In this document: piece after piece, positions 34,912 through 50,125 of the stretch
Layout: the number at the start of each line of letters is the position of its first letter
Numbering within the stretch: the first letter of the stretch is position 1
NCBI GenBank assembly: GCA_947503765.1
Contig: CANNFA010000002.1
Coordinates: forward strand, 182,501-246,500
DNA: 64,000 nucleotides
DNA from: an uncultured Paracoccaceae bacterium
GTDB taxonomy: Bacteria > Pseudomonadota > Alphaproteobacteria > Rhodobacterales > Rhodobacteraceae
Direction: 5' to 3'
Translations under genes and position numbers: made by a program
Notes under the pieces: generated by a model
Told to the model about the DNA's origin: nothing
The model's input: the letters and a program-made list of their open reading frames with translations, nothing else
The model's database searches: none

Positions 34912-34951
34912 GATCAAATGATCAACAGGAATAATTGATCAAACGATCAAT
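34912..34951. promoter_or_regulatory. paired TetR operator candidates
   Basis: Two related palindromes lie between the TetR gene and the hydroxylase operon. The element at 34912-34925 is GATCAAATGATCAA and that at 34934-34951 is ATTGATCAAACGATCAAT, the latter with perfect 7-base arms around AAAC. Their centres are 25 bases apart. The layout resembles RutR-type sites (TTGACCA-N2-TGGTCAA) without matching them. Position and spacing fit two TetR dimers covering the divergent promoters. Confidence 0.65.
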
Positions 34952-35012
34952 GAGCGTTCATCGGCGATCGCGGGAAAACCTGCGGCCCGAAAACCTCTGG
35001 GGAGGAACCGTT

Positions 35013-35846
35013 ATGAAGGCTTCGGTGGCCGGATATATCCGTGCGAACGATGTGGCGCATGCCGTGCGGCTGCTTGCTTCGGCGGACGGGATGGGGCGCG
35101 TTCTGGCCGGCGGGCAAAGCCTGGTGGCGGCGATGAACATGCGGCTGTCCACCGGCGACATGCTGGTCGATATCTCTCGGCTGACCGAACTGGAGGGCGT
35201 GACCGAGGAGGACGGCCGGCTGCGCATCGGTGCGTTGACGCGGCATGCCGAGATCGGGCGCAACCCGCTGATCCAAACACATGCGCCGCTGCTGGCCGAG
35301 GCCGCGGGCCATATCGCCCATGCGGCGATCCGCAATCGCGGCACCATCGGCGGGGCGCTGGCCCATGCCGATCCGGCCGCCGAATTTCCCGCCTGCATCC
35401 TGTGTCTGAACGCTGTCCTGCATGTCACCGGCCCGGACGGCAGCCGCGACATCGCGGCGGGCGATTTCTTTCACGGCCTGTTCGAGACGGCGCTGGAAGA
35501 GGGCGAGATCCTGACCGCGATCAGCCTGCCCAAGGCAGAGCCGGGCGAAGTGCAGGTCGTCGAGGAAATGGCGCGCCGGGCCGGCGATTACGCGCTGGCC
35601 GGGCTGTGCGTGACCCGCCGCAGGGCCGGGTACCGCATCGCCGCCTTCTCGGTCGGGCCACGCCCGATCCTGGCCACGGGCGCGATGCAGGCGCTGGATG
35701 CGGGCGATCTGGATGCCGCCGTCGCCAACCTGGCGGAAGAGATCGAGCCGGCCTCCGACACCCAGGCCAGCGCGGCTTACCGCCGGCATCTGGCCGGGGT
35801 TCTGCTGCGCCGGGCGGCCCTACGCATCGAGGGAGAGGCGCAATGA
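35013..35846 (+). CDS. molybdenum hydroxylase FAD subunit (CoxM/XdhB type)
   Basis: A 277-residue FAD-binding medium subunit of the xanthine dehydrogenase/CO dehydrogenase family. The FAD-binding segments AGGQSLVAAMNMRLS near residue 30 and the TIGGALAHADPAAE segment near 112 are clear. It passes electrons from the iron-sulfur subunit to NAD or another acceptor. ATG at 35013 has GGGGAGGAA upstream. It is first in the operon and overlaps the iron-sulfur gene by four bases. Confidence 0.94.
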   Translation: MKASVAGYIRANDVAHAVRLLASADGMGRVLAGGQSLVAAMNMRLSTGDMLVDISRLTELEGVTEEDGRLRIGALTRHAEIGRNPLIQTHAPLLAEAAGHIAHAAIRNRGTIGGALAHADPAAEFPACILCLNAVLHVTGPDGSRDIAAGDFFHGLFETALEEGEILTAISLPKAEPGEVQVVEEMARRAGDYALAGLCVTRRRAGYRIAAFSVGPRPILATGAMQALDAGDLDAAVANLAEEIEPASDTQASAAYRRHLAGVLLRRAALRIEGEAQ

Positions 35847-36343
35847 GCGACCAATTCGAAAACCGCATCGACATCGCGCTGACCGTGAACGGAGAGCCGG
35901 TGGAGGCGCGCGTGCCCGCCGGCCAACACCTGGTCGACTTCCTGCGGCTGGAGCTTGGCCTGACCGGCGCGCATGCCAGTTGCGAACACGGCGTCTGCGG
36001 CGCCTGCACCCTGCGGGTGAACGGCGATGCGGTGCGCGGCTGCCTGATGCTGGCCGCGCAGGCCGATGGCGCCGAGATCTGGACGGTCGAGGGGCTGTCC
36101 GACAGCGCCGCGTTCACCGATCTGCAAGAGGCCTTCGTCGCCCGCAACGCGCTGCAATGCGGGTTCTGCACGCCTGGGATGCTGGTGGCGGCCGAGGAAT
36201 TGCTGAGCGCGGGCGGCGTGCCGGACCGCGCCGAGATACGTGAACACCTGTCGGGCAATTACTGCCGCTGCACGGGATACGAGGCGATCGTGGACGCGGT
36301 GGAAACCGTGGCGCGGGCGCGGGCAGGGGAGGCTGCGCAATGA
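35843..36343 (+). CDS. molybdenum hydroxylase 2Fe-2S subunit (CoxS/XdhC type)
   Basis: A 166-residue protein binding two [2Fe-2S] clusters. The plant-type cluster uses CEHGVCGAC near residue 47 plus a cysteine near 71 (RGCLML); the second uses CGFCTPGM and CRCTGY near residues 108 and 143. It wires the molybdenum site to the FAD subunit. Both ends overlap neighbours by four bases, so the three subunits are translated in a coupled way. Confidence 0.96.
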   Translation: MSDQFENRIDIALTVNGEPVEARVPAGQHLVDFLRLELGLTGAHASCEHGVCGACTLRVNGDAVRGCLMLAAQADGAEIWTVEGLSDSAAFTDLQEAFVARNALQCGFCTPGMLVAAEELLSAGGVPDRAEIREHLSGNYCRCTGYEAIVDAVETVARARAGEAAQ

Positions 36344-38721
36344 CCATTGATTTCGGCCATCCGGACCGCCCCAATTCCTATATCGGCAAGACCGTGCCGC
36401 GCCCGAATGCGCCGCGCCTGGTGCAGGGGCGGGGGGAATATGTCGATGACATGGTCCTGCCGCGCATGCTGCATGTCGCCTTCGTCCGCTCGCCCTTTGC
36501 CCATGCGCGGATCACCGGCATCGACGCGGCCGAAGCCAAGGCGGTGCCCGGCGTGGTGCGGATCTTCACCGGCGCGGAGGTGGCAGAGGTCTGCACGCCC
36601 TGGGTCGGCGTGCTGGCGCATCTTCAGGGTCTGAAATCGCCGCCCGAATACGCCATCGCCGTGGACCGCGCCTGCTGGGTCGGTGAACCCGTGGCGGCCG
36701 TTGTCGCCACGTCGCGCGCTGCCGCCGAAGAGGGCGCCGCACTGGTGGAGGTCGATTACGATGTCCTGCCGGTCGTGGCGGACATGATGACCGCGCTGGA
36801 CGACGATACCCCGGTGCTGCACGCGGATCTTGGGGACAACCTCGCCTTTCGCCGGGTGAACGAACAGGGCGACGTGGATGCCGCCATGGCCGGCGCCCAC
36901 AAGGTCGTCACCGCGCATTTCACCACCGCCCGGCATACCGGCGTCACGCCCGAGCCGCGCTCTATCCTGGCGGATTGGAACCCGGCCGACGAACGGATGA
37001 CCGTGTGGCATTCCACCCAGGCGCCGCACATGATGCAGACCGCGCTGGCCACCCATCTGGACATCGCCGAAAGCCGCGTGCGGGTGATCTGCGGCGATGT
37101 GGGCGGATCCTACGGGATCAAGGTGCATGTCTATCCCGACGAGGTGGCGACAGCCGCGATCGCGCGCATCATGGGCCGGCCGGTGAAGTTCATCGCCGAC
37201 CGGCTGGAGAGCTTTTCCACCGACATCCATGCCCGCGACCACGAGATCGAGGCGAAGATCGCCGTCGATGCCGAAGGCCGCATCCTGGCGATGGACGTGG
37301 ACGACTGGACCGCCATCGGTGCCTATTCGGTCTATCCGCGCACCTCGGCGATGGAGGGCAACCAAGTCGTGAACCTGTGCGGCGGCCCCTATGATTTCGA
37401 ACATTACCGCGCCCGCACCAGCGTGGTGTTCCAGAACAAGACGCCGACCTGCCAGTACCGCGCGGTCGGGCACCCGATCGCCGTGGCGATCACCGAGGGG
37501 CTGGTGGACATGGCGGCGGCCGAGCTGGGCATGGACCCGGTCGAAATCCGGCGCCGCAATCTTTATGCCGACGACGCCTATCCGGTGACCTCGCCCGCCA
37601 AGATGCGGTTCGAGGGGCTGTCGCATCATAAAAGTCTCGATCTGCTGCTGGACCTGATGGATTACGACGGCTTGCGCGCCGAACAGGCGGAGCTGCGCGA
37701 AAAGGGCGTCTACCGGGGCATCGGCATTGCCAGTTTCATCGAACTGACCAACCCGTCGCCCTTCATGTACGGTATCGGCGGGGCGCGGATCTCGGCGCAG
37801 GATGGCTGCACGGTGCGGATGGATCCGGACGGGTCGATCGTGGCGCTGTCGGGCGTGACCGAACAGGGCCAGGGCACCGAGGCGATGCTGAGCCAGGTGG
37901 TTGCCGAAGGCGTGGGCGTGGCGCCGGGCCAGGTGCATGTCATCACCGGCGACACGCAGGTCACGCCCTATGGCGGCGGCACCTGGGCATCGCGCGGCGC
38001 CGGGATCGGCGGCGAGGCGGCGCTGCGCGCGGCGCGGGCCTTGCGCGATTCGATCCTCGAAGTCGCGGGCGCGATGCTGCAATCGGACGCGGCGGGCCTC
38101 GACATCCGCGACGGCGAGGTTGTCGATGCCAAGTCGGGCGAGGCGCGCATGCCGCTGGAGGAACTGGGCCGCATCGTCTATTTCCGCGGCGACACGCTGC
38201 CCCAGGGATTGCCGCGCGAACTGGTGCAGACCCGGCATTACATCACCTCGGAATATCCGTTCGCCTTCACCAACGGCGTGCAGGCGTCCTATGTCGAGGT
38301 CGATACCGATACCGGCAATGTCCGTCTGCTGAAACACTGGTGCGTCGAGGATTGCGGCCGGATCATCAACCCGATGCTGGTCGACGAGCAGATCCGCGGC
38401 GGCATCGTTCAGGGCCTTGGCGGCGCGCTGTTCGAGGAAATCCACTATGACGAGGACGGCCAGCTTCTGAACGGGTCGATGGCCGATTACCTGGTGCCGA
38501 TGGCGGCGGAAATGCCCGACATGGTGATCGGCCATGTCGAGACGCCGACCAAGGAAAGCAGCCTCGGTGCGAAGGGTGCCGGCGAGGCCGGAACCGCCGG
38601 CGCGCCCGCCGCGGTGATGAACGCGATCAACGACGCGCTGCGCCCGATGGGGGCGCAGGTCACCCACATGCCGTTCACGCCCGAGCGCGTCCTGCGCGCG
38701 CTTGGCACATTGAAAGACTGA
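36340..38721 (+). CDS. molybdenum hydroxylase large subunit (CoxL-like, not CO dehydrogenase)
   Basis: A 793-residue molybdopterin-binding catalytic subunit. The N-terminal ald_Xan_dh domain covers about residues 20-140 and molybdopterin-binding domains follow to the end. The active-site glutamate is in GAKGAGEAGTAG near residue 745. The loop that in true CO dehydrogenase reads AYXCSFR reads CQYRAVGHP here, so CO is not the substrate; an aldehyde or N-heterocycle is more likely. It carries no Tat or Sec signal, so it is cytoplasmic. A TRAP transporter and sugar enzymes follow on the same strand. Confidence 0.94.
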   Translation: MTIDFGHPDRPNSYIGKTVPRPNAPRLVQGRGEYVDDMVLPRMLHVAFVRSPFAHARITGIDAAEAKAVPGVVRIFTGAEVAEVCTPWVGVLAHLQGLKSPPEYAIAVDRACWVGEPVAAVVATSRAAAEEGAALVEVDYDVLPVVADMMTALDDDTPVLHADLGDNLAFRRVNEQGDVDAAMAGAHKVVTAHFTTARHTGVTPEPRSILADWNPADERMTVWHSTQAPHMMQTALATHLDIAESRVRVICGDVGGSYGIKVHVYPDEVATAAIARIMGRPVKFIADRLESFSTDIHARDHEIEAKIAVDAEGRILAMDVDDWTAIGAYSVYPRTSAMEGNQVVNLCGGPYDFEHYRARTSVVFQNKTPTCQYRAVGHPIAVAITEGLVDMAAAELGMDPVEIRRRNLYADDAYPVTSPAKMRFEGLSHHKSLDLLLDLMDYDGLRAEQAELREKGVYRGIGIASFIELTNPSPFMYGIGGARISAQDGCTVRMDPDGSIVALSGVTEQGQGTEAMLSQVVAEGVGVAPGQVHVITGDTQVTPYGGGTWASRGAGIGGEAALRAARALRDSILEVAGAMLQSDAAGLDIRDGEVVDAKSGEARMPLEELGRIVYFRGDTLPQGLPRELVQTRHYITSEYPFAFTNGVQASYVEVDTDTGNVRLLKHWCVEDCGRIINPMLVDEQIRGGIVQGLGGALFEEIHYDEDGQLLNGSMADYLVPMAAEMPDMVIGHVETPTKESSLGAKGAGEAGTAGAPAAVMNAINDALRPMGAQVTHMPFTPERVLRALGTLKD

Positions 38722-38730
38722 AAACCGCAC

Positions 38731-38752
38731 GGAATGCGCCAACAGGCATTCC
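38731..38752 (+). terminator. stem-loop between hydroxylase and TRAP genes
   Basis: Perfect 7-base arms GGAATGC and GCATTCC around an 8-base loop, directly after the large-subunit stop and 19 bases before the dctP start. There is no T tract. It may be an attenuator or an RNA-processing hairpin. Confidence 0.45.
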
Positions 38753-38771
38753 ACTTAAGGGAGGATACCAC

Positions 38772-39827
38772 ATGAAGTTCCACACATTGGCCGCAACCGC
38801 GATGCTGACCGTGTTTACCGCGGGCGGCGCGCTGGCGCAGCAGCAGATCACCGTCAATATCGGATCGTCGCACCCCGAGGCGAACATCTGGGTCTACGCG
38901 ATGAAGAACACCTTTCAGCCCGAGGTGAACCGCATCCTCGGCGAGGCGGGCGAATACGAGGTGAACTGGGTCGAATCCTATGCCGGAACGCTCTACAAGT
39001 TCACCGACACGCGCGAGGCGGTGATGGACGGCATCGTCGATGTCGGCATGGTCGGCACGGTCTGGGAAGGGGCGAACATGCCGCTTCAGAACGTGACCTA
39101 TTTCACGCCCTTCGCCACGTCCGACCACAAGATGATCATCGAGATCTTCGACGAGCTCAGCCAGAGCCTGCCGGAATTGCGCGACAGCTGGGCGGAAAAC
39201 GGGATGGTGCACCTGTCCTCGCTGATCACCGACAGCTACGACATCTACGCGACCTTCCCCGTGAACTCGATGGACGACCTGCAGAACCGCAAGCTGAACG
39301 CGCCGGGCACCTCGGCCAACTGGCTGCGCGGCACCGGGGCCACCCCGGTCGACGGGGCGCTGACCACCTATTACACCAATATCCAGACCGGCGTGACCGA
39401 GGGCACGCTGTCCTTCGCCTCGGGCATCCTGCCGACACGGGTCTACGAGGTCGCGCCGGAACTGACGCGGGTCGGCATCGGGTCGATGTATTTCGGCGGC
39501 ATCGCGGCCAACAAGGACTTCTTCGACGGCCTGCCCGCCCCGGTGCAGGAAGCGTTCCGCGAGGCGTCCAAGGCGACCTCGATCGCGCATGGCGATTACG
39601 TCGCGGATCTCGCGGCCCGCGCGATGGAAGAGATGCAGGCGGCCGGGCTGACCGTGCACGAGCTGCCCGACGCCGAAAAGACCGCCTGGGTCGACGGGCT
39701 GCCCAACATCATCGAGCCGTGGCTGGACCAGACCGGCGACAAGGGCCGCGTGGTGCTCAAGGCGTATTTCGACGCGCTGCGCGACCGCGGCGCGACGCCG
39801 CTGCGGAACTGGGACGAAGGTCTCTGA
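38772..39827 (+). CDS. TRAP transporter substrate-binding protein (DctP type)
   Basis: A 351-residue periplasmic binding protein with a 22-residue signal peptide (ends GGALAQ). It has the DctP-type body: SSHPEANIWVYAM near residue 32, LNAPGTSANWLRGTGATPV near 175 and the region that includes the ligand-clamping arginine. TRAP binding proteins capture organic acids, often sugar acids. GGGAGG lies nine bases before the ATG. It begins a dctPQM set that is followed by sugar-oxidation genes, suggesting an aldonate or uronate as ligand; that is inference. Confidence 0.92.
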   Translation: MKFHTLAATAMLTVFTAGGALAQQQITVNIGSSHPEANIWVYAMKNTFQPEVNRILGEAGEYEVNWVESYAGTLYKFTDTREAVMDGIVDVGMVGTVWEGANMPLQNVTYFTPFATSDHKMIIEIFDELSQSLPELRDSWAENGMVHLSSLITDSYDIYATFPVNSMDDLQNRKLNAPGTSANWLRGTGATPVDGALTTYYTNIQTGVTEGTLSFASGILPTRVYEVAPELTRVGIGSMYFGGIAANKDFFDGLPAPVQEAFREASKATSIAHGDYVADLAARAMEEMQAAGLTVHELPDAEKTAWVDGLPNIIEPWLDQTGDKGRVVLKAYFDALRDRGATPLRNWDEGL

Positions 39828-39850
39828 TCTGCTACCATCTTTGATACGCA

Positions 39851-39875
39851 TCCGCCCGGACAGGTTCCGGGCGGA
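39851..39875 (+). terminator. stem-loop between dctP and dctQ
   Basis: Perfect 10-base-pair arms TCCGCCCGGA and TCCGGGCGGA with loop CAGGT, 23 bases after the dctP stop and followed by CGCCTTTCC. Its position allows higher dctP than dctQM expression. Confidence 0.65.
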
Positions 39876-39914
39876 CGCCTTTCCGACCCGACACCGAGCC
39901 CCGAGCGAGCCAGC

Positions 39915-40481
39915 ATGAGCGACGACAGCACGGCCGACATCGAAGACAGGTACGTTCCGCGCTTTTCCGAGGCGCCCTATGGCGCGGTGCTCGGCAGTGT
40001 CGCGGCCGTCATGTCGTCTTTTGGAACGCTCTGGATCGGCGCGCTGATGGCGCTGATCGTCGCCGACGTGATCGGCCGCAACTTCCTCAATGCGCCGATC
40101 ACCGGCGTGGCCGAGATTGCCGGCCGGTCGGTCGTGGCCATTGTGTTCCTGCAAGTTGCCGCCGCGATCCTGCAAAAACGCCTGACCCGCGCCGATTTCC
40201 TGGTGCGCCGCCTGGAAGCCGCCGCGCCGCGCACCGGCTTCGTGATCGAAACCGTCTTTGCGCTGGTGGGCGCGGTCGTCTTCGCGCTGATCCTCTGGGC
40301 GTCCTGGCCGAAACTGATCACCGCCTGGACCGGCGCGGAATATTTCGGGGTGCAGGGGGTGTTCACGATCCCGACCTATCCGTTCCGCGCGATCACGGTT
40401 CTGGGGTCGGCCGTCGCAATGCTGGCCTCGCTCTACCGTGCGTTCCAGGAAATCCGCCTGTACCGGAGTTTCGCGCCATGA
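39915..40481 (+). CDS. TRAP transporter small permease (DctQ type)
   Basis: A 188-residue inner-membrane protein with four membrane segments at about 25-55, 65-88, 108-130 and 150-172, matching DctQ topology. The ADVIGRNFLNAPITGVAEIAG segment near residue 50 matches the family's conserved RxxxxxPxxWxEE-like region. It overlaps dctM by four bases. Confidence 0.92.
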   Translation: MSDDSTADIEDRYVPRFSEAPYGAVLGSVAAVMSSFGTLWIGALMALIVADVIGRNFLNAPITGVAEIAGRSVVAIVFLQVAAAILQKRLTRADFLVRRLEAAAPRTGFVIETVFALVGAVVFALILWASWPKLITAWTGAEYFGVQGVFTIPTYPFRAITVLGSAVAMLASLYRAFQEIRLYRSFAP

Positions 40482-41806
40482 CCACGCTTGCCATCGGCTT
40501 TCTCCTGATCGGCGTGCTGATCGCGCTGGTGCTGCTGGGCATGCAGATCGCCTATGCGCTGTTCGGCGTCGCCTTTGCGGGCATCTGGATCATACGCGGC
40601 AATCTCGACCTGTCGTTCCGGATGCTGGAGTTGACCGCCTATAGCGGCATCGCAGATTACCTGTTCGCCACGATCCCGCTATTCGTGCTGATGGGCCTGC
40701 TGGTCAGCGTGTCGAATGTGGGGCGCGACACCTTCGAGGTGGCCGAGGAACTCTTGCGCCGGATGATCTGCGGTCTGGGGGTCGCGACGGTCGCGGCCAA
40801 TACCGTTTTTGCCGCCGTGACCGGGGTTTCCATCGCCTCGGCCGCCGTGTTCACCCGCGTCGCCGTGCCGGAAATGACGCGCCACGGCTATCGGCCGTCC
40901 TTCTCGGCGGGCACGGTGGCTGGCTCGTCGGTGCTGGGGATGCTGATCCCGCCCAGCCTGCTGCTGATCATCTACGGCGTGCTGGCCGAGGTGTCGATCG
41001 GCGGCATGTTCATCGCCGGCGTGGTGCCGGGGCTGATGCTGGCCGGCGGCTTCGTGGCGATGCTGATCGCGGTGACGATCCTGTTTCCGAGCTTTGTTCT
41101 GACCGACCCGGATGCGGCCCGCACAAGGCGGCTGGACAAGGACCTGGAAAGGATGCCGGTCAGCCGGATGATCGCCAAGCTGATCCCCATCGTGATCCTG
41201 GTGATCCTGGTGCTGGGCGGGCTGTATCTGGGGTTCTTCACCCCGACCGAAGCCGGCGGCGTCGGCGCCTTTGCCGCGCTGATCGTAGCGGTATCGCGCC
41301 GCACGCTGGACCGGCACCGGTTGTGGCAGGTGATGAAGCAGACCGGCGTGATTTCCGTGTCGATCCTGCTGCTGCTGATCGCCGCCAGCTTCTATTCGCG
41401 GATGCTGTCGATTGCCGGGCTGCCCAATGCCATCGCCGGGCTGGTGGCCGATTCCGGCTTCGGGCCGATGGGCTTCATGTTCTTCTACGCGGTGATCATC
41501 CTGCTGATGGGCATGATCCTGGACAGCACGTCGATCCTGCTGATCATGGTCCCGATCGCGGCGCCCATCGCGCAGAACCTCGGGCTGGATCTCAGCCATT
41601 TCGGCATCATCACGGTGATCGCGGTCGAAATTGGGCTGCTGACGCCGCCTTTCGGCATCTCGGTCTTCACGGTGCACAACACGCTGAACGATCCATCGGT
41701 GACGGTCGAGCAGATCTTTGCCGCGACGCTACCGTTCATCGCCATCATGCTGGTGGTTCTGGTGTTGGTCGCGCTGTTCCCGGTGACGGCCACGATCTTC
41801 CTGTAG
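40478..41806 (+). CDS. TRAP transporter large permease (DctM type)
   Basis: A 442-residue permease with about 12 membrane segments. The characteristic SGVSIASAAVF-like segment near residue 112 (AVTGVSIASAAVF), the GSSVLGMLIPPSLLLIIYG region near 150 and the FGIITVIAVEIGLLTPPFG region near 378 identify it as DctM. It drives sodium-coupled uptake of the solute delivered by DctP. Confidence 0.95.
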   Translation: MTTLAIGFLLIGVLIALVLLGMQIAYALFGVAFAGIWIIRGNLDLSFRMLELTAYSGIADYLFATIPLFVLMGLLVSVSNVGRDTFEVAEELLRRMICGLGVATVAANTVFAAVTGVSIASAAVFTRVAVPEMTRHGYRPSFSAGTVAGSSVLGMLIPPSLLLIIYGVLAEVSIGGMFIAGVVPGLMLAGGFVAMLIAVTILFPSFVLTDPDAARTRRLDKDLERMPVSRMIAKLIPIVILVILVLGGLYLGFFTPTEAGGVGAFAALIVAVSRRTLDRHRLWQVMKQTGVISVSILLLLIAASFYSRMLSIAGLPNAIAGLVADSGFGPMGFMFFYAVIILLMGMILDSTSILLIMVPIAAPIAQNLGLDLSHFGIITVIAVEIGLLTPPFGISVFTVHNTLNDPSVTVEQIFAATLPFIAIMLVVLVLVALFPVTATIFL

Positions 41807-41946
41807 CGCGGCATCGGGCGACAGCGCGCCGCGCGCCGCCGATTGCTGGCGAAAGCGGCCACCGGCGGCTACAACACGGGCAGAGCACGAATAGCGGTGC
41901 CCCGCCTGAACGGGCAGCGCCGTGCCCCCGTGACAGGAGCCGCCAG

Positions 41947-42882
41947 ATGACCCACCGGATCGCCATTGTCGGAATCGGCAAGATCGCCCGCGATCAGCAC
42001 GTTCCGACCCTTGCCGCCAGCCCGGATTTCGAGCTGGCCGCCACCGCCAGCCGCAATGGCCGCGTGGACGGCATCGACGCCTATACAAGCCTGAATGACC
42101 TGCTGGAGGCGCGGCCTGACATCCCCTGCATCTCGCTGTGCACCCCGCCGCATGTGCGCTATGCCGATGCGCGCCTCGCGCTCGAGGCGGGGCGGCACCT
42201 GATGCTGGAAAAGCCCCCCGGCGCGACCCTTTCGGAAGTCCACGACCTGATCGACCTGGCTGCCGCGAAGGGTCTGACGCTTTATGCCACATGGCATTCG
42301 CGGCACGCGCCCGCCGTTGCCGCAGCGCGGGAATGGCTGGCGGACAAGGACATCACGCGGCTGCACATTTCGTGGAAAGAGGATGTGCGCCACTGGCATC
42401 CGGGCCAGGACTGGATTTGGCAGGCCGGCGGGCTGGGCGTGTTCGACCCCGGCATCAATGCGCTGTCGGTGCTGACGGCGATCTATCCGCGCGCGCTGCA
42501 CCTGACCCGCGCCGAGCTGGCCTTCCCCGAGAACCGCGACACGCCCGTCGCCGCCGAGCTGGACTTTTTCGATCCGGGCGGCGCGGCGATCACGGCGGAA
42601 TTCGACTGGCTGAAACAGGGCCGGCCGGAATGGGACATGCATATCGAGACGGCGAGCGGCGCCGCGCGGCTCAGCGAGGGCGGCGCGCGGCTGACGGTGG
42701 ACGGGGCAGAGACGCAAGGGCCGGATGCACCGGAACTGGTGGGCGAATACCCCGCGCTTTACGCGCGCTTTGCCGAGCTTCTGGCGGAAGGCACCAGCGA
42801 GACCGATCTTGCGCCGATGCGCCATGTCGCCGATGCCTTCATCCTGGGCCGCCGCAGATCGGCCCCGCGTTTCGACTGGTAG
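41947..42882 (+). CDS. Gfo/Idh/MocA oxidoreductase, D-galactose 1-dehydrogenase-like
   Basis: A 311-residue NAD(P)-dependent oxidoreductase. The N-terminal Rossmann start MTHRIAIVGIGKIARDQHVP, the EKPPGATL active-site segment near residue 88 (with the family lysine) and HPGQDWIWQAGGLGVFDPGINALS near 150 match D-galactose/L-arabinose 1-dehydrogenases of alphaproteobacteria. It would convert an aldose to its aldonolactone in a non-phosphorylative pathway. It follows the TRAP genes by 140 bases and precedes a matching dehydratase gene. Preference between galactose, arabinose and fucose cannot be read. Confidence 0.87.
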   Translation: MTHRIAIVGIGKIARDQHVPTLAASPDFELAATASRNGRVDGIDAYTSLNDLLEARPDIPCISLCTPPHVRYADARLALEAGRHLMLEKPPGATLSEVHDLIDLAAAKGLTLYATWHSRHAPAVAAAREWLADKDITRLHISWKEDVRHWHPGQDWIWQAGGLGVFDPGINALSVLTAIYPRALHLTRAELAFPENRDTPVAAELDFFDPGGAAITAEFDWLKQGRPEWDMHIETASGAARLSEGGARLTVDGAETQGPDAPELVGEYPALYARFAELLAEGTSETDLAPMRHVADAFILGRRRSAPRFDW

Positions 42883-42903
42883 ACCGACCTGAAAGGACAC
42901 CCC

Positions 42904-43821
42904 ATGACCACCACCCCGACCACCGGCATCCTGCCCGTCGCCCCCACCCCGTTCCACGCGGATGGCCGGGTGGACGAGGAGGGGATGCGCCGCGTTCTCG
43001 ATTGCCTGATCGACCAGGGCGTCGACGCGATCTGCATCCTGGCGAATTATTCCGAGCAATTCGTGCTGTCGGACGACGAGCGCGCGACACTGGTGCGGCT
43101 CAGCCTCGACCATGTGGCGGGGCGGGTGCCGGTGATCGTCACGATCAGCCATTTCCACACCGGCCTCGTGGTGGACCGTGCCCGCACCGCCAAGGAGCAG
43201 GGCGCGGCCATGGTGATGATGATGGCGCCCTATCACGGCGCCGCGCTGAAGGCCGACGATCAGGGCGTGTTCGAACAATTCGCCGCCGTGAACGAAGTCG
43301 GGATCCCGGTGATGGTGCAGGATGCGCCGCTGTCGGGGGTTCACCTGTCGGTGCCGCTGCTGGCGCGCATGGCGGCAGAGCTTGAGAACGTCCGCTGGTT
43401 CAAGATGGAAATGCCCTTTGCCGCCGACAAGCTGGCCGCGCTGATCGAGGCGGGCGGCAAGAACATCCTCGGCCCCTGGGACGGCGAAGAGGCGGTGACG
43501 CTGCTGGCGGATCTCGATGCCGGTTGCACCGCCTCGATGACCTCGGGGCTGCAATGCGAACAGATCAGGCCGATCATCACCGACTATCTTGCCGGCGACA
43601 AGGCGGCCGCGCTGGCGCAATGGACGCGGTGCCTGCCGCTGATCAACCACGAAAACCGGCAATGCGGGCTGCGCGCGACCAAGGCGGTGTACATGGAGGG
43701 CGGCGTGATCGGCTCGGACCATGTGCGCCACCCGCTCAAGCCGATGACCGACCGGACGCGGGCCCGCCTGCTGGAACTTGCGCGCGAGCTTGACCTCATC
43801 GCGCTGAAATGGGGGAAGTGA
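42904..43821 (+). CDS. DHDPS-family lyase, L-2-keto-3-deoxyarabonate dehydratase-like
   Basis: A 305-residue TIM-barrel protein of the dihydrodipicolinate synthase family. The Schiff-base lysine is Lys167 in WFKMEMP. The usual YNxP tyrosine loop reads VMVQDAP (residues 137-143), and SEQFVLSDDER and LINHENRQCG are as in L-2-keto-3-deoxyarabonate dehydratases, which yield 2-oxoglutarate semialdehyde. It lies 21 bases after the galactose-dehydrogenase-like gene, giving first and later steps of one oxidative route. The middle steps (lactonase, aldonate dehydratase) are not in this window. A 2-keto-3-deoxygluconate/galactonate aldolase role is an alternative. Confidence 0.88.
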   Translation: MTTTPTTGILPVAPTPFHADGRVDEEGMRRVLDCLIDQGVDAICILANYSEQFVLSDDERATLVRLSLDHVAGRVPVIVTISHFHTGLVVDRARTAKEQGAAMVMMMAPYHGAALKADDQGVFEQFAAVNEVGIPVMVQDAPLSGVHLSVPLLARMAAELENVRWFKMEMPFAADKLAALIEAGGKNILGPWDGEEAVTLLADLDAGCTASMTSGLQCEQIRPIITDYLAGDKAAALAQWTRCLPLINHENRQCGLRATKAVYMEGGVIGSDHVRHPLKPMTDRTRARLLELARELDLIALKWGK

Positions 43822-43867: not shown

Positions 43868-45148
43868 CTAGCGGTAGATCAGCGTCGGCAGCCACATGGT
43901 GATCGACGGCACGAAGGTGATGAGCAGCAGGACCAGCACCAGCGGAACCAGGAACGGCGCGGTGCCGACGACGGCACGCTCGAACGGGATCCGGGCGATG
44001 CGCGACAGCACGTAAAGCACCATGCCCACCGGCGGTGTCAGCAGCCCGAGCATCAGGTTCAGCACCATGATGACGCCGAAATGCACCGGGTCGATCCCGA
44101 TTTCCAGCGCGACCGGCAGCAGGACCGGCACCATGATCGTGATCGCGGCCACCGTTTCCATGAAACAGCCCACGACGATCAGGATGAAGTTGATCAGCAG
44201 CAGGATCACCCAGGGCCGGTCCGAGGCTGCCAGCAGCAGCGCGGCAACCGTTTCGGGCACCCGGTTGGATGTCAGGATCCACGCAAAGATCGCCGCCGCG
44301 CCGACAACCAGCAGCACGACCGCCGTGGTTTCGATCGTGTCATAGCTGACCCGCAGGAACCGGCGCCAGTTCAGCGTGCGATAGACGATCAGCCCCAGGA
44401 ACATCGCCCAGGCACAGGCGGCGACGGCGGCCTCGGTCGGGGTGAAGGCGCCGGTCAGGATGCCGCCGACGATGATGATCGGCGTCAGCAGCGACAGGAA
44501 CGCGCGCCGGAAGGTCAGGACCAGCAGCGACACCTTGAACGCCTGGTCGCGCGGAAACCCGCGCCGCCGCGCCATGATCGCCACCATCACCATCAGCGCC
44601 AGCGCCATGAAGATTCCGGGCAGGAACCCGGCGGCGAACAGCTGCCCGATCGAGGCGCTGGCGACCACGCCGTAGATCACCATCGGCAGCGAGGGCGGGA
44701 TGATCGGGCCGATGGTGGACGAGGCCGCGGTGATGCCGACGGCGAATTCGCTGTCGTAATTGGCATCGCGCATCGCCTTGATCTCGATCGCGCCCAGGCC
44801 GCCGGCATCGGCCACCGCCGCGCCGGACATGCCCGCGAAGATCACCGAGGCGCCCACATTCACATGGCCCAGCCCGCCGCGCATCCAGCCGACCATCGAC
44901 AGCGCGAAGTTGAAGATCCGCTCGGTGATGCCGGCGGTGTTCATCAGGTTGCCGGCGAGGATGAAGAACGGCACGGCCAGCAGCGGAAAGCTGTCGACCC
45001 CGTTGATCATCCGGTGCGCGACGACCATCGGCGGGACCGACCCGCTTGTGAGCACGTAGATCGCCGAGGATCCGGCCAGCGCGATGGCGACCGGGACACC
45101 GAAGATCAGCAGCCCGAACAGGGCGATGAAGAGAATGGCGATTTCCAA
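43868..45148 (-). CDS. TRAP transporter large permease (DctM type), second system
   Basis: A 426-residue permease with about 12 membrane segments. Family segments include IFAGMSGAAVADAGGLGAIE near residue 108, IGPIIPPSLPMVIYGV near 145 and a GVIMVLNLMLGLLTPPVG region near 350. It completes the second DctPQM set, 10 bases after dctQ. Gene order on the minus strand is fusion regulator, dctP, dctQ, dctM. Confidence 0.95.
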   Translation of the reverse strand: MEIAILFIALFGLLIFGVPVAIALAGSSAIYVLTSGSVPPMVVAHRMINGVDSFPLLAVPFFILAGNLMNTAGITERIFNFALSMVGWMRGGLGHVNVGASVIFAGMSGAAVADAGGLGAIEIKAMRDANYDSEFAVGITAASSTIGPIIPPSLPMVIYGVVASASIGQLFAAGFLPGIFMALALMVMVAIMARRRGFPRDQAFKVSLLVLTFRRAFLSLLTPIIIVGGILTGAFTPTEAAVAACAWAMFLGLIVYRTLNWRRFLRVSYDTIETTAVVLLVVGAAAIFAWILTSNRVPETVAALLLAASDRPWVILLLINFILIVVGCFMETVAAITIMVPVLLPVALEIGIDPVHFGVIMVLNLMLGLLTPPVGMVLYVLSRIARIPFERAVVGTAPFLVPLVLVLLLITFVPSITMWLPTLIYR

Positions 45149-45158
45149 TGGAAGGTTC

Positions 45159-45725
45159 CTAATCCATGGTAGGCACGCTGTCGGCGTGCAGTTCGGGGTC
45201 GATGAGCCTGGAGGTGCCGTCGCGCAGATGCATCCAGCCGTTCCGCAGCGCGTAGAACGTCATCGCGGCGAAACAGGCGGCGACGAACCAGTAGACGTAG
45301 GATTTCGGCAGGTCGATCGAGACCATCATCTGGCCCGTGCGTCCGGCCAGCTGTCCGGTCAGCAGCGTCAGCATCCCGAAAAAGCCGATCGTCACAGCGT
45401 CGATGGCGGCCTGCGCCACCCGCCGCACCGGGCGCGGCACCCAGCGGTACAGGAACTCGACCGCGATATGGGTGTTCTTGCGCACCGCCATGACCGAGCC
45501 GGTGAAGGTTACGGCGATCAGCAGGAAGCGCGCGATCTCTTCGGTCCAGCCCAGCGAATCGTTCAGCACGTAGCGGGTGAAGAATTGCAGGAACACGACG
45601 AATGCGAGGATCCAGAAGATCACCAGCACCAGCGAGTCGTCCCATCGCAGGTCCGACAGGTCGATCTCCTGTTCCTCGAAGTGGATTTCCGGAAGTTCCG
45701 GCTCGTCCGGGCGTTTGTCGGTCAT
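45159..45725 (-). CDS. TRAP transporter small permease (DctQ type), second system
   Basis: A 188-residue membrane protein. About 28 acidic N-terminal residues (EIHFEEQEIDLSDL) precede four membrane segments. The conserved YVLNDSLGWTEEIARFLLI near residue 52 is the DctQ hallmark (W-x-E-E). It is separated from dctP by a strong stem-loop and closely followed by dctM. Confidence 0.93.
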   Translation of the reverse strand: MTDKRPDEPELPEIHFEEQEIDLSDLRWDDSLVLVIFWILAFVVFLQFFTRYVLNDSLGWTEEIARFLLIAVTFTGSVMAVRKNTHIAVEFLYRWVPRPVRRVAQAAIDAVTIGFFGMLTLLTGQLAGRTGQMMVSIDLPKSYVYWFVAACFAAMTFYALRNGWMHLRDGTSRLIDPELHADSVPTMD

Positions 45726-45804: not shown

Positions 45805-46803
45805 CTACTGGCCGATGGCCTGAAGCCGGTCGTAGGTTTCCTGATCCCAGGTCGCCATTTCGCCGTTATGCAGCTTCTTGACCGCCTCGATGAACGGGCC
45901 GCGCTCGACCTCGTTCACGTTGTTGCCCTGCTCGCGGAACCACTCGGCAAGCTCGGCTTCCGACTTGCGGATCGCGTCGGTCGCGCAGACGGCGGTGTCC
46001 TGCAGAACGCCGCTCAGCGTCTCGCGGTCGGCCTCGTCCATGCTGTTCCAGGTCGGGCCGCCGATGATCGTCAGCAGCGCGTCGGTGATGTGCCCGGTCA
46101 GGTTGATGTCCGATTGCACCTCGTAGAACTTCTTGGCCTGGATCGTCGGCAGCGGGTTCTCCTGGCCGTCCACGGTGCCCTGCTGCAGCGCAAGATAGAC
46201 CTCGGCGAAGGCGATGGGCGTCGGGTTCGCGTCGACCGCGTTGGGAAACATCATGTAGAGCGGCGCGTTCGGCACCCGGATCTTCATGCCCTTCATGTCC
46301 TCGGGCTTGAGGATCGGCTTGTTCGAGGTGGCATGCCGGTTGCCGTAATAGGTCATCGCGACGATGTGGTTGCCGGTCGCGTCGGTGTAGCCCTGGCTGA
46401 GTTCGCCGAACAGGTCCGAATTGCGGAACTGGTCCCAGTGGTCATAGTCGCGGAACATGTAGGGTGCGCCGCCGATGGCGATGGGGCCATAGGCGCGGCC
46501 GGCGAACAGCTGCCCGGTATAGATGATGTCGACGGTGCCGAGGCCCAGCCCTTCGTTGATGTCGACTTCCTTGCCCAGCGACGAGGCGGGGAACACCTCG
46601 ATCCCGTAGCGGTTGTCGGTCGCCGCCTTCAGCGCGTCGTTCGCGTCGACGGCGCAGGTGTGGTACGGCTCGCTGGATTCGTAGACATGGGCAAATTTCA
46701 GAACGCGGTCGGCATCCTGCGCGAAGGCGGCGGGCGCCGTCAGTGTCGCGGCGAGGCTGGCCGCCGCCGCAAGGAACGTGGTCTGCTTGAACTTGGACAT
46801 CAT
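45805..46803 (-). CDS. TRAP transporter substrate-binding protein (DctP type), second system
   Basis: A 332-residue periplasmic binding protein with a signal peptide of about 28 residues (ends PAAFAQD). DctP features are the mature start RVLKFAHVYESSEPYHTC, the MKGMKIRVPNAPLYMMFPNAVDANPTP region near residue 155 (family arginine in the binding cleft) and EVYLALQQGTVDGQENP near 190. Its ribosome site AGGGAGGATCC begins directly after the stop codon of the fusion gene, proving a common transcript is likely. The ligand may be a 2-hydroxy or 2-keto acid handled by the fused dehydrogenase. Confidence 0.94.
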   Translation of the reverse strand: MMSKFKQTTFLAAAASLAATLTAPAAFAQDADRVLKFAHVYESSEPYHTCAVDANDALKAATDNRYGIEVFPASSLGKEVDINEGLGLGTVDIIYTGQLFAGRAYGPIAIGGAPYMFRDYDHWDQFRNSDLFGELSQGYTDATGNHIVAMTYYGNRHATSNKPILKPEDMKGMKIRVPNAPLYMMFPNAVDANPTPIAFAEVYLALQQGTVDGQENPLPTIQAKKFYEVQSDINLTGHITDALLTIIGGPTWNSMDEADRETLSGVLQDTAVCATDAIRKSEAELAEWFREQGNNVNEVERGPFIEAVKKLHNGEMATWDQETYDRLQAIGQ

Positions 46804-46818
46804 GAATGGATCCTCCCT

Positions 46819-48597
46819 TTACTGATGTTCCGCCTCACCTTGCGCGGACAGGGTCCGCAGCGCGGTGATGCCATGGTCCCGGGCAAACGTGCCCAGGTGT
46901 TCCAAAGTCGTGCCGTCGAGTTTCATGCCTTTCGACCGGCGCTCGTGCGATTCTTTCCATTCGCGGTCGCCTGGGGCAAGAACCTTCTGCCCCGGGGACG
47001 CCGCCGACCGGCGGATCGTTTCCAGATAGCGTGCGATCAGGGCGCGAAACGGCGCCGCGCCGCTGAACGCGTCCGGGTCCAGCGCCATGACGAAGGCCCC
47101 CAGCTTGCGCGGGGTCGCCATGTCGGCAGAGATCATCGACGGCAATTCATGGCTGAGCGGGGCGTCGGAAAACGCCGCCGACATCACTTCGGACAGGCCG
47201 GCAAGCCCCGCCCCCTTGTAGCCGAAATCGAGCCCGCCAAGCGGCGCCAGCATGTCCACCGCCGCCGGGTCCGTCACGTTGATCCCCTGCGCATCCGAGG
47301 CCACGTCCGCCGGCAGCGGGATCCCCAGCGAGCGGCACAGCTGCACGCGATTGAACGGAATCGAACTGGTCGCCATGTCCAGAAGCCACGGCTCGTCGCC
47401 GTCGGCCGGGGCCGCCGCGGCGATCGGGTTGGTGCCGTGAAACCGTGCCGCCCCGCCATGCAGGCGCACGAAACTGTCGGAGTTGCAGAAGGCCAGCCCC
47501 ATCATCCCCTGCCGCGCGATTTCCGCCGCATAGGCCCCCGCCGCCCCGAAATGCGACGAGTTGCGGATCGCCACCGCGCCGATCCCGTGCTCGCGGGCCT
47601 TGCGCACCGCGATCTCCACCGCGGCATAGCTGGCACGCGCGCCATGCGCGTCGTCGGCATCCAGCACACAGGCGCCGCCGGTCTCGGTCACGATACGCGG
47701 CGCGGGGTGCGGATTGATCCGTCCGCCCGCCAGGCCTTGCAGGTAATGCGGCAGCAGGCGGAAGCCGTGGGTGTCGACGCCCAGCGTCGAGGCATGCAGC
47801 AGCGCCCTGGTCACCGCGTCCACGGTCGCCGCGTCGGCCGCGACCGCGGTCAGCGCGGCGCGGGAAAACCGCTCCATCTCTGCAAGGTCCACGCGGATGT
47901 CGCGGCCCGTCTGTGCGGGGGTGCGGTCTTCGTCGGTGATCTGCGCGAGGTAATTGCGCGCGGTGTCGGCGATATGGCTGGCCAGCACCGCCAGCGCGCG
48001 TTCCACGTCGCCCTTTTCCACCGCGTCGCAGATCGCCGCATGATCCTTGAGCGACGTGTCGTTCAGGGCGGCGTCCAGCGACAGCCGGTTGCGCAGCGCC
48101 TGCACCCGGAATGACAGCATCCGCGCATGGGTCTCGATATAGCCGTTACCGCAATGGGCGAAGATCTCGCCGTGAAAATCGTAGTCGAGCGCCTTGTAGG
48201 CGTCGGTGTCGGACCGCGACAGCGCGTCCTGCATCCGCGCCAGGATGGCATGCAGCTTGCGCGCAAGCGTCGCCGGGTTGCGCGCGCAGGCCAGGCGCAG
48301 CGCTTCGCGTTCAAGCATCTGGCGCAGCTCGCCCAGCTCGGCGACTTCGTCGGGGGTCATCGAGAAGACCCGCGTCGTGCGGCTGGGCGACAATTCGATC
48401 AGTCCCTCGCGCTCCAGCTGCAAAAGCGCCTCGCGGATCGGGCTCTTGCTCATGCCCAGAAGGCGCACGAGTTCCGCCTCCGGCAGCTTGCCGCCCATCG
48501 GAAACTCGCCCGAAATGATTCGCGCGCGAATCGCCTCGCGCGCCTGTTCCGACAGTTTCTGCCGCTCTATCGGTGTCTCGACATGCTTGGTCTGCAA
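46819..48597 (-). CDS. GntR/FCD transcription regulator fused to Ldh (YiaK/malate-lactate dehydrogenase type) enzyme
   Basis: A single uninterrupted 592-residue frame joining two complete proteins. Residues about 12-75 are a GntR winged helix (LPEAELVRLLGMSKSPIREA), and 85-218 an FCD ligand domain with its metal set (Asp138 or Asp140, His142, His186, His208). After a short linker (about 220-235), residues 236-592 are an NAD(P)-dependent Ldh-family dehydrogenase with DTHG at 275-278, NSSHFG at 346-351, MATSS near 408 and GYKGAGLA at 459-466. Relatives reduce 2,3-diketogulonate, ureidoglycolate, sulfolactate or cyclic imino acids. The start is TTG at 48597. It heads a TRAP operon, like yiaK beside yiaMNO. 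The fusion looks real because both halves are full length, but a sequencing frameshift at the junction cannot be fully excluded. Confidence 0.88.
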   Translation of the reverse strand: MQTKHVETPIERQKLSEQAREAIRARIISGEFPMGGKLPEAELVRLLGMSKSPIREALLQLEREGLIELSPSRTTRVFSMTPDEVAELGELRQMLEREALRLACARNPATLARKLHAILARMQDALSRSDTDAYKALDYDFHGEIFAHCGNGYIETHARMLSFRVQALRNRLSLDAALNDTSLKDHAAICDAVEKGDVERALAVLASHIADTARNYLAQITDEDRTPAQTGRDIRVDLAEMERFSRAALTAVAADAATVDAVTRALLHASTLGVDTHGFRLLPHYLQGLAGGRINPHPAPRIVTETGGACVLDADDAHGARASYAAVEIAVRKAREHGIGAVAIRNSSHFGAAGAYAAEIARQGMMGLAFCNSDSFVRLHGGAARFHGTNPIAAAAPADGDEPWLLDMATSSIPFNRVQLCRSLGIPLPADVASDAQGINVTDPAAVDMLAPLGGLDFGYKGAGLAGLSEVMSAAFSDAPLSHELPSMISADMATPRKLGAFVMALDPDAFSGAAPFRALIARYLETIRRSAASPGQKVLAPGDREWKESHERRSKGMKLDGTTLEHLGTFARDHGITALRTLSAQGEAEHQ

Positions 48598-48721
48598 GGT
48601 GACGGCTCCTCCCGAGGGTCCGACGTTATATCATATGCCAAATGGCGCAACAGATCTTTTGGCATCCCGGAACCGGCGCCGGTGGCGGTGGGTTGAGCCT
48701 GCAAGCGAAGGGAGTCGGACC
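48598..48721. promoter_or_regulatory. divergent promoter region with GntR-type inverted repeat
   Basis: This gap lies between the fusion gene and the flavoprotein gene. Inverted copies of ATGCCAAA (48635-48642) and TTTGGCAT (48658-48665) are perfect over eight bases with 15 between, and TATATCATATG overlaps the left arm. Such A/T-rich palindromes are typical for FCD-type GntR proteins. The two 8-mers are two helical turns apart (23 bases start to start). Confidence 0.55.
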
Positions 48722-50125
48722 ATGCAGACGCACAGACCGGATGTCGCGGTGATCGGGGCCGGCACGGCCGGGCTGACCGCAGAGCGTCAGGCGCGGCGCG
48801 CGGGCGCGTCGACACTGCTGATCGACCCGGCGTTTCGCGGCACCACCTGCGCGACGGTGGGGTGCATGCCGTCCAAGCTGCTGATCGCGGCGGCCGACGC
48901 GGCCGAGGCCGTGCGCGGCGCGGCGGTTTTCGGGATCGACGCTGCACCCCGCATCGACGGCGCGGCCGTGATGGCGCGGGTGCGGCGCATGCGGGACGAT
49001 TTTGCCGCTTCGGTGCGCAGGAACATTTCCGATCTGCCGGACGGGATATCTATCGAGGCGCGCGCGCGGTTCACGGCGCCCGGCATGCTGGCGCTGGACA
49101 ATGGCGACTGCGTGGCGCCGCGCGCGGTCGTGATCGCGACCGGCGCGGCCCCGGCGATTCCGCCCCCCTACGAGCATGTCCGCGACCGCGTTCTGACCAA
49201 CGAAAGCCTGTTCGAGCTGTCCGATCTTCCGGCCTCGGTCGGTGTGGTCGGGGCCGGTCCCCTTGGTCTGGAACTGGCGCAGGCGCTGGCGCGGCTGGGT
49301 GTGCGGGTCGCGGTGTTCGACGCCGCGGACCGGCTGGCGGGCCTGCCGGAAGAGACGAGCGCGGCGCTTGGCCGGATCCTGTCGGACAGTTTTCCGATCC
49401 ATCTGAACAGCACGCCCGAGCCCGCCGCCGTGTCGGACGGTGTGCGCCTGACCTGGGACGGCGGCTCTGCCGAGTTCGAGCGGGTGCTGGTCGCCGCCGG
49501 GCGGCCGCCCGACCTGGACGGGCTGGCGCTTGGCGATGCCGGCCTCGCGCTGGACGAAAACGGAACTCCGCTATTCGATCCGGCCACGATGCAATGCGGC
49601 ACCGCGCCGGTTTTCATCGCGGGCGACGCCAACCACGCGCAACCGGTCCTGCACGAAGCCTCTGCCGAAGGGACCATCGCCGGGCGCAACGCCGCGAACT
49701 GGCCCGATATCCGCAAGGCGGAGCGCAAGGTGCCGATGGCCGTGACCTTCACGCGGCCCGCCGCGGCGGTCATCGGTACCACTCCCGGACCCGAGGCGCG
49801 GGACGTGTTGACCGGATGCGTCGATTTCGCGGACCAGGGGCGCGCCCGCGTCATGGGCCGTGCGCGGGGGCTGTGCCGGATCCATGCGCGCGCCGGTGAC
49901 GGGCGTCTTCTGGGTGCGTCGCTATGCGCACCGGGGGGCGAGCATCTGGCGCATCTGCTGGCCTGGGCGATCCAGGCGGGCATGACTGCGGACGAGGTGC
50001 TCGAGATGCCGTTCTATCACCCGACCCTTGAAGAGGGGCTGAAGACGGCGCTTCAGGAAATCTGCCACAAGGGCAAGCTGGCCCATCCATGGAGCCGCGA
50101 CGACGATCCCTTGCCGGGCATGTAG
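48722..50125 (+). CDS. FAD-dependent pyridine nucleotide-disulfide oxidoreductase (dihydrolipoamide dehydrogenase-like)
   Basis: A 467-residue class I flavoprotein disulfide reductase. It has the N-terminal FAD motif VIGAGTAGLTAERQ, redox cysteines Cys43 and Cys48 (TTCATVGCMPSK), a second dinucleotide motif VGVVGAGPLGLELAQAL near residue 175, and the C-terminal HPTLEEG with the catalytic histidine. The dimerisation domain is complete. No lipoylated partner is nearby, and the protein is more divergent than a housekeeping Lpd, so its disulfide substrate is unknown. ATG at 48722 has AAGGGAG upstream. It is divergent from the GntR fusion and may share its operator. Confidence 0.9.
   Translation: MQTHRPDVAVIGAGTAGLTAERQARRAGASTLLIDPAFRGTTCATVGCMPSKLLIAAADAAEAVRGAAVFGIDAAPRIDGAAVMARVRRMRDDFAASVRRNISDLPDGISIEARARFTAPGMLALDNGDCVAPRAVVIATGAAPAIPPPYEHVRDRVLTNESLFELSDLPASVGVVGAGPLGLELAQALARLGVRVAVFDAADRLAGLPEETSAALGRILSDSFPIHLNSTPEPAAVSDGVRLTWDGGSAEFERVLVAAGRPPDLDGLALGDAGLALDENGTPLFDPATMQCGTAPVFIAGDANHAQPVLHEASAEGTIAGRNAANWPDIRKAERKVPMAVTFTRPAAAVIGTTPGPEARDVLTGCVDFADQGRARVMGRARGLCRIHARAGDGRLLGASLCAPGGEHLAHLLAWAIQAGMTADEVLEMPFYHPTLEEGLKTALQEICHKGKLAHPWSRDDDPLPGM

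Follow-up and report, generated by a model that had tools for sequence, protein, structure and literature searches.

A GntR/FCD regulator fused to a complete Ldh_2 dehydrogenase in Rhodobacterales, a candidate autoregulator of its own TRAP importer operon

The fusion gene and its protein

The window, i.e. the whole 64,000-nucleotide stretch of contig CANNFA010000002.1 that was analysed, carries a genuine regulator-dehydrogenase fusion, confirmed as a GntR/FCD regulator and a full Ldh_2 dehydrogenase in a single open frame. Judging from sequence and gene context, the protein is probably a bifunctional autoregulator of its own enzyme-importer operon. The initial annotation had described an uninterrupted frame of 592 codons at 46819-48597 and named no strand; the list of open reading frames bears this out and places the gene on the minus strand. 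Its features are as follows:

46819..48597, minus strand: fusion gene (GntR, FCD and Ldh_2), 592 stop-free codons in the open reading frame list, TTG start
Within 46819..48597, minus strand: GntR winged helix and FCD domain (about residues 12-216), linker (219-236) and Ldh_2 dehydrogenase (237-568)
47944..48597, minus strand: regulator half, residues 1-218 (GntR 15-77, FCD 87-210), from Pfam and alignment
46819..47892, minus strand: enzyme half, residues 236-592 (Ldh_2), from Pfam and alignment
48606..48613, minus strand: Shine-Dalgarno sequence GGGAGGAG, 8 bases 5' of the TTG start

Pfam models recognize in the window protein a GntR domain at residues 15-77 (2.1e-15, 56.5 bits against a cut-off of 27), an FCD domain at 87-210 (8.8e-22, 78.3 bits against 24.3) and Ldh_2 (PF02615) at 237-568 (2.9e-92, 309.8 bits against 38.8), the latter over profile positions 2-332 of 333, and all three domains are matched in 15/15 aligned fusions, namely the window protein and those of 14 further loci (L009-L022). 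With models of the NCBIfam type, the fused regulator scores best with phnR_burk and NanR. Among solved chains, the enzyme half matches Agrobacterium 1z2i (1.5e-111) far better than YiaK (2.5e-26), which corrects the Ldh/YiaK type named initially. The window protein also stays below the NCBIfam equivalog cut-offs for AllD (TIGR03175, 160.6 bits against 496.2), L-sulfolactate dehydrogenase (NF040650, 164.9 bits against 500) and YiaK, a 3-dehydro-L-gulonate 2-dehydrogenase (NF009750, 116.1 bits against 316). In Foldseek searches with the AlphaFold model (mean pLDDT 71.9, pTM 0.54, the relative placement of the halves not being reliable), the enzyme part resembles 1z2i and the N-terminal half resembles GntR/FCD regulators. 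Production of a free Ldh protein from an internal start was considered and is not supported: Met241 is invariant in 15/15 fusions, yet by eye it is not preceded by a properly spaced Shine-Dalgarno sequence.

The key residues of both halves are conserved. In the alignment, AllD residues His44, Tyr52, His116, Ser140, Asp141, Met251 and Arg259 correspond to H277, Y285, H349, S373, D374, M488 and R497, which are invariant in 15/15 fusions; the position of AllD Ser43 is occupied by T or S in the fusions and that of Arg48 by Leu281 in the window protein. The AllD paper assigns His116 as the base and describes both histidines (His44 and His116) as invariant in the family. FCD residues D138, H142, H186 and H208, equally invariant (15/15), are aligned with N144, H148, H192 and H214 of PS5454, whose FCD metal site is described in PMC7674646; three histidines with Asp or Asn, the signature of an FCD metal site, are thus present in the fusions. 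For seven pairs, dN/dS values obtained by simple counting, with some dS values near or above 1, were 0.05-0.23 for the winged helix, 0.13-0.37 for FCD and 0.06-0.22 for Ldh_2; conservation is lowest in the linker, at 17-76% identity and a dN/dS of 0.2-1.8. Both halves are under purifying selection and neither is decaying, in agreement, like the Pfam matches and the invariant residues, with the earlier description of a full regulator joined to a full dehydrogenase, each with its key residues.

Distribution and origin of the fusion

The scan of genome contigs returned 17 loci. Fourteen of them (L009-L022) carry the fusion at full length; of the other three, L023 has a separate Ldh gene, and L024 and L025 match Ldh at a distance. 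The 14 fusions come from ten genera, every one of them in Rhodobacterales, and share 59-72% identity with the window protein. With near-copies excluded, the search for further proteins combining GntR, FCD and Ldh_2, which the initial annotation had proposed, brings the number of distinct fusion loci to 18, made up of the window itself, L009-L022, L047, L049 and L050. In taxonomic samples, which overlap and whose strict E-value cut-offs would hide remote fusions, the fusion was found in 4 of 198 genomes of the family (G000, G152, G188 and G025; E 1e-60), with 11 further genomes matching solely from residue 224 or later; in 4 of 390 genomes of the order, with one matching in the Ldh part (E 1e-115); in G000 as the sole fusion among 385 genomes of the class, with two others matching in the Ldh part (E 1e-90); and in 4 of 5 genomes of the genus, G906 being without a match. 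A match was found in 28 plasmid records, none of them covering 80% of the query. Stand-alone relatives of the N-terminal half reach at most 41% identity in the 198 genomes. Outside annotated records, genes were called with our own codon-usage script, which fails in the lower-GC loci L020, L021, L076 and L082-L084; unfused TRAP loci were rechecked by tblastn. In G152, which also has a full fusion, a second stretch at a contig edge (contig C20, 165-329) is 84% identical to fusion residues 7-61 and is either a further copy or an assembly remnant.

An artefact of sequencing or assembly can be set aside with near certainty, nothing having been found in its favour and the same open junction recurring in 18 different loci, which span several genera and types of assembly. 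A missed frameshift or stop at the junction, against which the initial annotation had advised a check, is unrealistic, given that independent isolates and MAGs have an open junction as well. The other objection foreseen there, that close relatives might always have the two genes apart, fails because the closest relatives are themselves fused.

A tree built from 37 Ldh domains divides the 17 fused from the 20 separate ones at a branch supported 100/100, and no separate row falls among the fused. The tree leaves out L025 (a distant fragment) and the 28 plasmid records, and has one entry per genome, L029, L031, L033-L036 and L043 being from the same genomes as L052, L053, L054, L055, L048, L056 and L051; L047 and the near-copies L026, L042 and L046 were left out of both alignment and tree. 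Because the fused Ldh domains form one such branch, a single fusion event is the simplest reading of their phylogeny.

Unfused counterparts provide a view of the alternative arrangement. In five separate clusters (L023, L040, L041, L051 and L052), the gene order is Ldh, GntR, dctP, dctQ, dctM, according to record annotation for L040 and L041 and to our own gene calls for L023, L051 and L052. Those of Paracoccus contaminans (L040) and Rhizobium lentis (L041) resemble the window in that the same three kinds of genes adjoin, and differ from it in that Ldh precedes GntR and an L-idonate 5-dehydrogenase gene follows in both; L040, unlike L041, also has a mannonate dehydratase gene. The neighbouring GntR proteins of L040 and L051, the two scanned, score best with UxuR/ExuR models, whereas the fused regulator does so with phnR_burk and NanR. 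Simple read-through of an adjacent pair is therefore ruled out as the source of the fusion, since the gene order is reversed and the GntR models differ. A profile of the fused N-terminal halves scores 59-75 bits against full-length GntR proteins of the separate loci and 75-85 bits against paralogues in the genome that contains the window.

The TRAP operon and a candidate operator

The genes 3' of the fusion and the conserved elements 5' of it are the following:

45805..46803, minus strand: dctP, TRAP solute-binding protein, 15 bp 3' of the fusion gene
45159..45725, minus strand: dctQ, TRAP small permease, by Pfam family
43868..45148, minus strand: dctM, TRAP large permease, by family models
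48625..48639, minus strand: candidate operator, imperfect inverted repeat GGCATAT-G-ATATAAC, from shared sequence and position
48646..48650, minus strand: TTGCG, -35-like, at the same distance from the repeat in most fusion loci, from column conservation

The fusion gene, dctP, dctQ and dctM share one strand and succeed one another at intervals of 15, 79 and 10 bp. The dctP gene adjoins the fusion in 14/14 loci (L009-L022), and so do dctQ and dctM in the 13 that are not ended by a contig edge, a gene order indicating that the fusion heads an operon fusion-dctP-dctQ-dctM. Of the link to TRAP transport made in the initial annotation, this part is upheld. The coupling to the importer is not obligatory, because orthologous TRAP transporters occur without the fusion: dctP was found at E 1e-110 in 19/394 genomes and has at least 71% identity in 11 of these, five of them fused (G000, G152, G427, G188 and G025) and six not. 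Within the stretches examined, only one of these six, G183 (L048), has an Ldh or GntR relative, with a separate Ldh gene 3' of dctM and a GntR gene farther away. The stretch 6576-15275 of L048 contains this TRAP set, orthologous to that of the window (dctM 84%), followed by the separate Ldh gene, and the same-strand genes before the set resemble, by eye, a ribose-type ABC importer.

Two further gene groups flank the operon in the window. Divergent from the fusion gene, and sharing with it the intergenic stretch that bears the repeat, is a plus-strand gene at 48722-50125 for a flavoprotein of the dihydrolipoyl-dehydrogenase type (NF004939, 518.3 bits, above the cut-off of 435). A second cluster, on the plus strand at 34935-43821, faces the fusion operon and comprises subunits of the molybdenum-hydroxylase type (by eye), a second TRAP dctP (38772-39827), a Gfo/Idh oxidoreductase within the frame 41323-42882 and a DHDPS-family protein (42904-43821); the latter two have no match in fusion loci L009-L022.

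Gene content gives a hint, and no more, that the substrate is perhaps a sugar acid, and favours no one reaction. The hint comes from the L-idonate 5-dehydrogenase genes of two separate clusters and the mannonate dehydratase gene of one (L040). A galactarate-dehydratase-like gene lies 3' of dctM in fusion locus L020 (394.1 bits) and in unfused L080 (351.6 bits), in both cases below the cut-off of 730.85, and L053 holds a member of the same cluster. The nearest solved chain to the window dctP protein, whose predicted structure is poor (pLDDT 40.6), is 4pc9 (1e-49). Neither 4pc9 nor 4pcd was named in the literature among the matches listed; we take these entries to have D-mannonate/L-galactonate bound. 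Sulfolactate is not favoured, given the score of 164.9 bits against a cut-off of 500.

The initial annotation had named 48598-48721 as the stretch for a DNA-binding test, and the operator-like repeat at 48625-48639, kept in 17 of the 18 fusion loci, lies inside it. Upstream of the fusion genes the 15-bp consensus is GRTATAT-N-ATATACC. A core pattern, YRTAYNRTATA, was present within 100 bp upstream in 16/17 fusion loci examined (dinucleotide-shuffled sequences: 0.1%) and also in L047, which brings the count to 17/18; in these 17 loci the 15-bp repeat ends 21-27 bp 5' of the chosen start. Information per column in 16 loci is 1.30 bits across the repeat versus 0.42 bits across the 35 preceding positions. 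When up to one mismatch was allowed, the host genome (3.98 Mb) contained a single match to the window repeat and none to its reversed control, the pattern having been fitted to that site. Taken alone, the palindrome score of each locus does not exceed chance, 5-6 of 8 pairs being the usual result for shuffled upstream regions; the case for an operator is built on shared sequence and position. A sigma-70 consensus scan of 48560-48760 called no promoter, TTGCG included. Promoter conservation could be a partial source of the conservation of the repeat, because the pattern was derived from these very loci and overlaps the presumed promoter.

Outside the fusions, the core pattern was absent from all 19 long unfused loci and from five neighbourhoods examined. 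It occurs in 2 of 77 non-fusion loci (L032 and L099), which is the level of chance, five shuffles giving 0-4. Each of these two copies has a divergent GntR gene on one side and an operon of the TRAP or Ldh kind on the other, the GntR gene of L099 encoding a 34% relative of the fused regulator. At L099 1380-1560 (G192), where this stand-alone regulator gene diverges from the TRAP genes with one copy of the core pattern in between, a perfect 7+1+7 repeat of similar half-sites, GGCATAC-T-GTATGCC, is found near that copy; it may be the operator of an unfused lineage and, because it was noticed afterwards, is offered as a lead only.

The sole fusion of the 18 that is without the repeat, L049, has the recognition helix GTGRREIREAL, versus M/VSKSPI/VREAL elsewhere, and a joint change of regulator and operator is possible in this locus. 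The half-site of the repeat resembles the NanR box TGGTATAW, inverted. The spacing typical of FadR-subfamily sites (GT and AC 3 or 2 nt apart; GT-N3-AC) is not matched by the repeat. This atypical spacing is compatible with FadR/FCD membership, because PMC4494728 lists exceptions, NanR among them.

Possible mode of action and comparison with known systems

As an autoregulator, the protein would bind the inverted repeat over the operon promoter through its GntR/FCD half and repress fusion-dctP-dctQ-dctM; the position of the repeat over the presumed -10 element would fit repression, rather than activation, by a block of RNA polymerase. The FCD pocket, with its metal-site residues, would bind a hydroxy or sugar acid imported by the TRAP transporter, upon which the winged helix would leave the repeat and enzyme and importer would be made together. 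The Ldh_2 half would oxidize or reduce the imported acid, or its product, with NAD(P), and this turnover would clear the inducer beside the sensor. A single chain at the head of the operon would keep sensor and enzyme at a fixed ratio, co-made with the importer, and the enzyme may in this way help to turn its own supply line on or off. One substrate common to importer, sensor and enzyme is assumed throughout.

Whether the covalent link does more than set a ratio admits different answers. It is quite conceivable, if a little short of probable, that two independent functions are simply co-inherited and co-made, the enzyme having no extra influence on DNA binding. The same kinds of genes merely adjoin in the separate clusters, and no tuned interface is visible in the linker, because this is the least conserved part of the protein; such variability speaks mildly against a tuned interface. 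The single origin, with the link kept in all 17 fused tree rows and no separate row among them, hints weakly at usefulness and speaks mildly for a benefit of the link. Rather tentatively, the protein may be regarded as a trigger enzyme with two sensors, in which FCD would read the acid and occupancy of the dehydrogenase by substrate, product or NAD(P)H would set the affinity for the operator. If so, the operon would follow enzyme flux and not inducer level alone, and Rhodobacterales would have evolved, on a single occasion, a flavin-free equivalent of PutA built on GntR. With a clade that has a candidate operator and unfused relatives, the idea of an enzyme reporting its own work to its promoter becomes directly testable, and comparison of the fused with the adjoining-gene arrangement allows the added value of the covalent link to be tested.

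That the Ldh_2 half is a sensor and no longer an enzyme is unlikely. There are precedents in BzdR, whose shikimate-kinase-like domain is without detectable shikimate kinase activity according to PMC3602430, and in MocR regulators, which sense through an aminotransferase-like domain (PMC5320631), and the residue equivalent to AllD Arg48 is replaced (Leu281). In the fusions, however, H277, H349, S373, D374, M488 and R497 are invariant, the Ldh_2 domain is under strong purifying selection, FCD already supplies a sensor, and the protein's own genome has only distant Ldh paralogues (27-30% identity). Still more doubtful is that the regulator half is a relic or an oligomerization module and the protein just an enzyme. 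The repeat could belong to the promoter, and the L049 fusion exists without it; against this, selection is strongest on the winged helix, the FCD metal-site residues are invariant, and the repeat-less locus is precisely the one with the differing recognition helix.

The best reading of these sequence comparisons is that the window protein, taken as an autoregulator, would work like PutA or MocR regulators and belongs to neither family. Trifunctional PutA, as presented in PMC5293562, carries an N-terminal DNA-binding domain on an active catabolic dehydrogenase and is an autogenous repressor of its own regulon. The window protein shares with it a predicted DNA-binding N-terminus joined to a dehydrogenase and is proposed, by analogy, to act alike. 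PutA has a ribbon-helix-helix domain, a flavin-dependent proline dehydrogenase and a P5C dehydrogenase, none of which Pfam finds in the window protein, where a winged helix of the GntR type precedes a full ligand domain (FCD) and an NAD(P)-type Ldh_2 enzyme. MocR/GabR proteins likewise join a winged helix of the GntR family to a large enzyme-derived domain, but according to PMC5320631 this is an aminotransferase-like, PLP-binding domain and FCD is lacking; Pfam detects no aminotransferase domain in the window protein, just GntR, FCD and Ldh_2. BzdR also consists of a DNA-binding domain, a linker and an enzyme-like domain, the former being HTH-XRE and the latter the kinase-like domain without detectable kinase activity (PMC3602430). 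In BzdR, a regulator of enzyme origin, the enzyme activity has been lost; the window protein combines an entire regulator, ligand domain included, with an active-looking enzyme whose key residues are intact.

Among the papers listed by full-text searches, no description of the combination of GntR, FCD and Ldh_2 was found; because subscription journals and protein-architecture databases were outside the scope of this search, the architecture may be catalogued without having been studied. The individual halves have well-represented counterparts. The FCD-type GntR regulators PmiR (7xp0), PS5454 (3c7j), TM0439 (3fms) and NanR (6on4) have the same winged helix, FCD domain and metal-site residues, but were deposited as proteins of 209-265 residues that stand alone, with no enzyme attached. 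Similarly, Agrobacterium 1z2i, AllD, sulfolactate dehydrogenase, YiaK and DpkA share the Ldh_2 fold and the catalytic histidines with the enzyme half, but are stand-alone chains.
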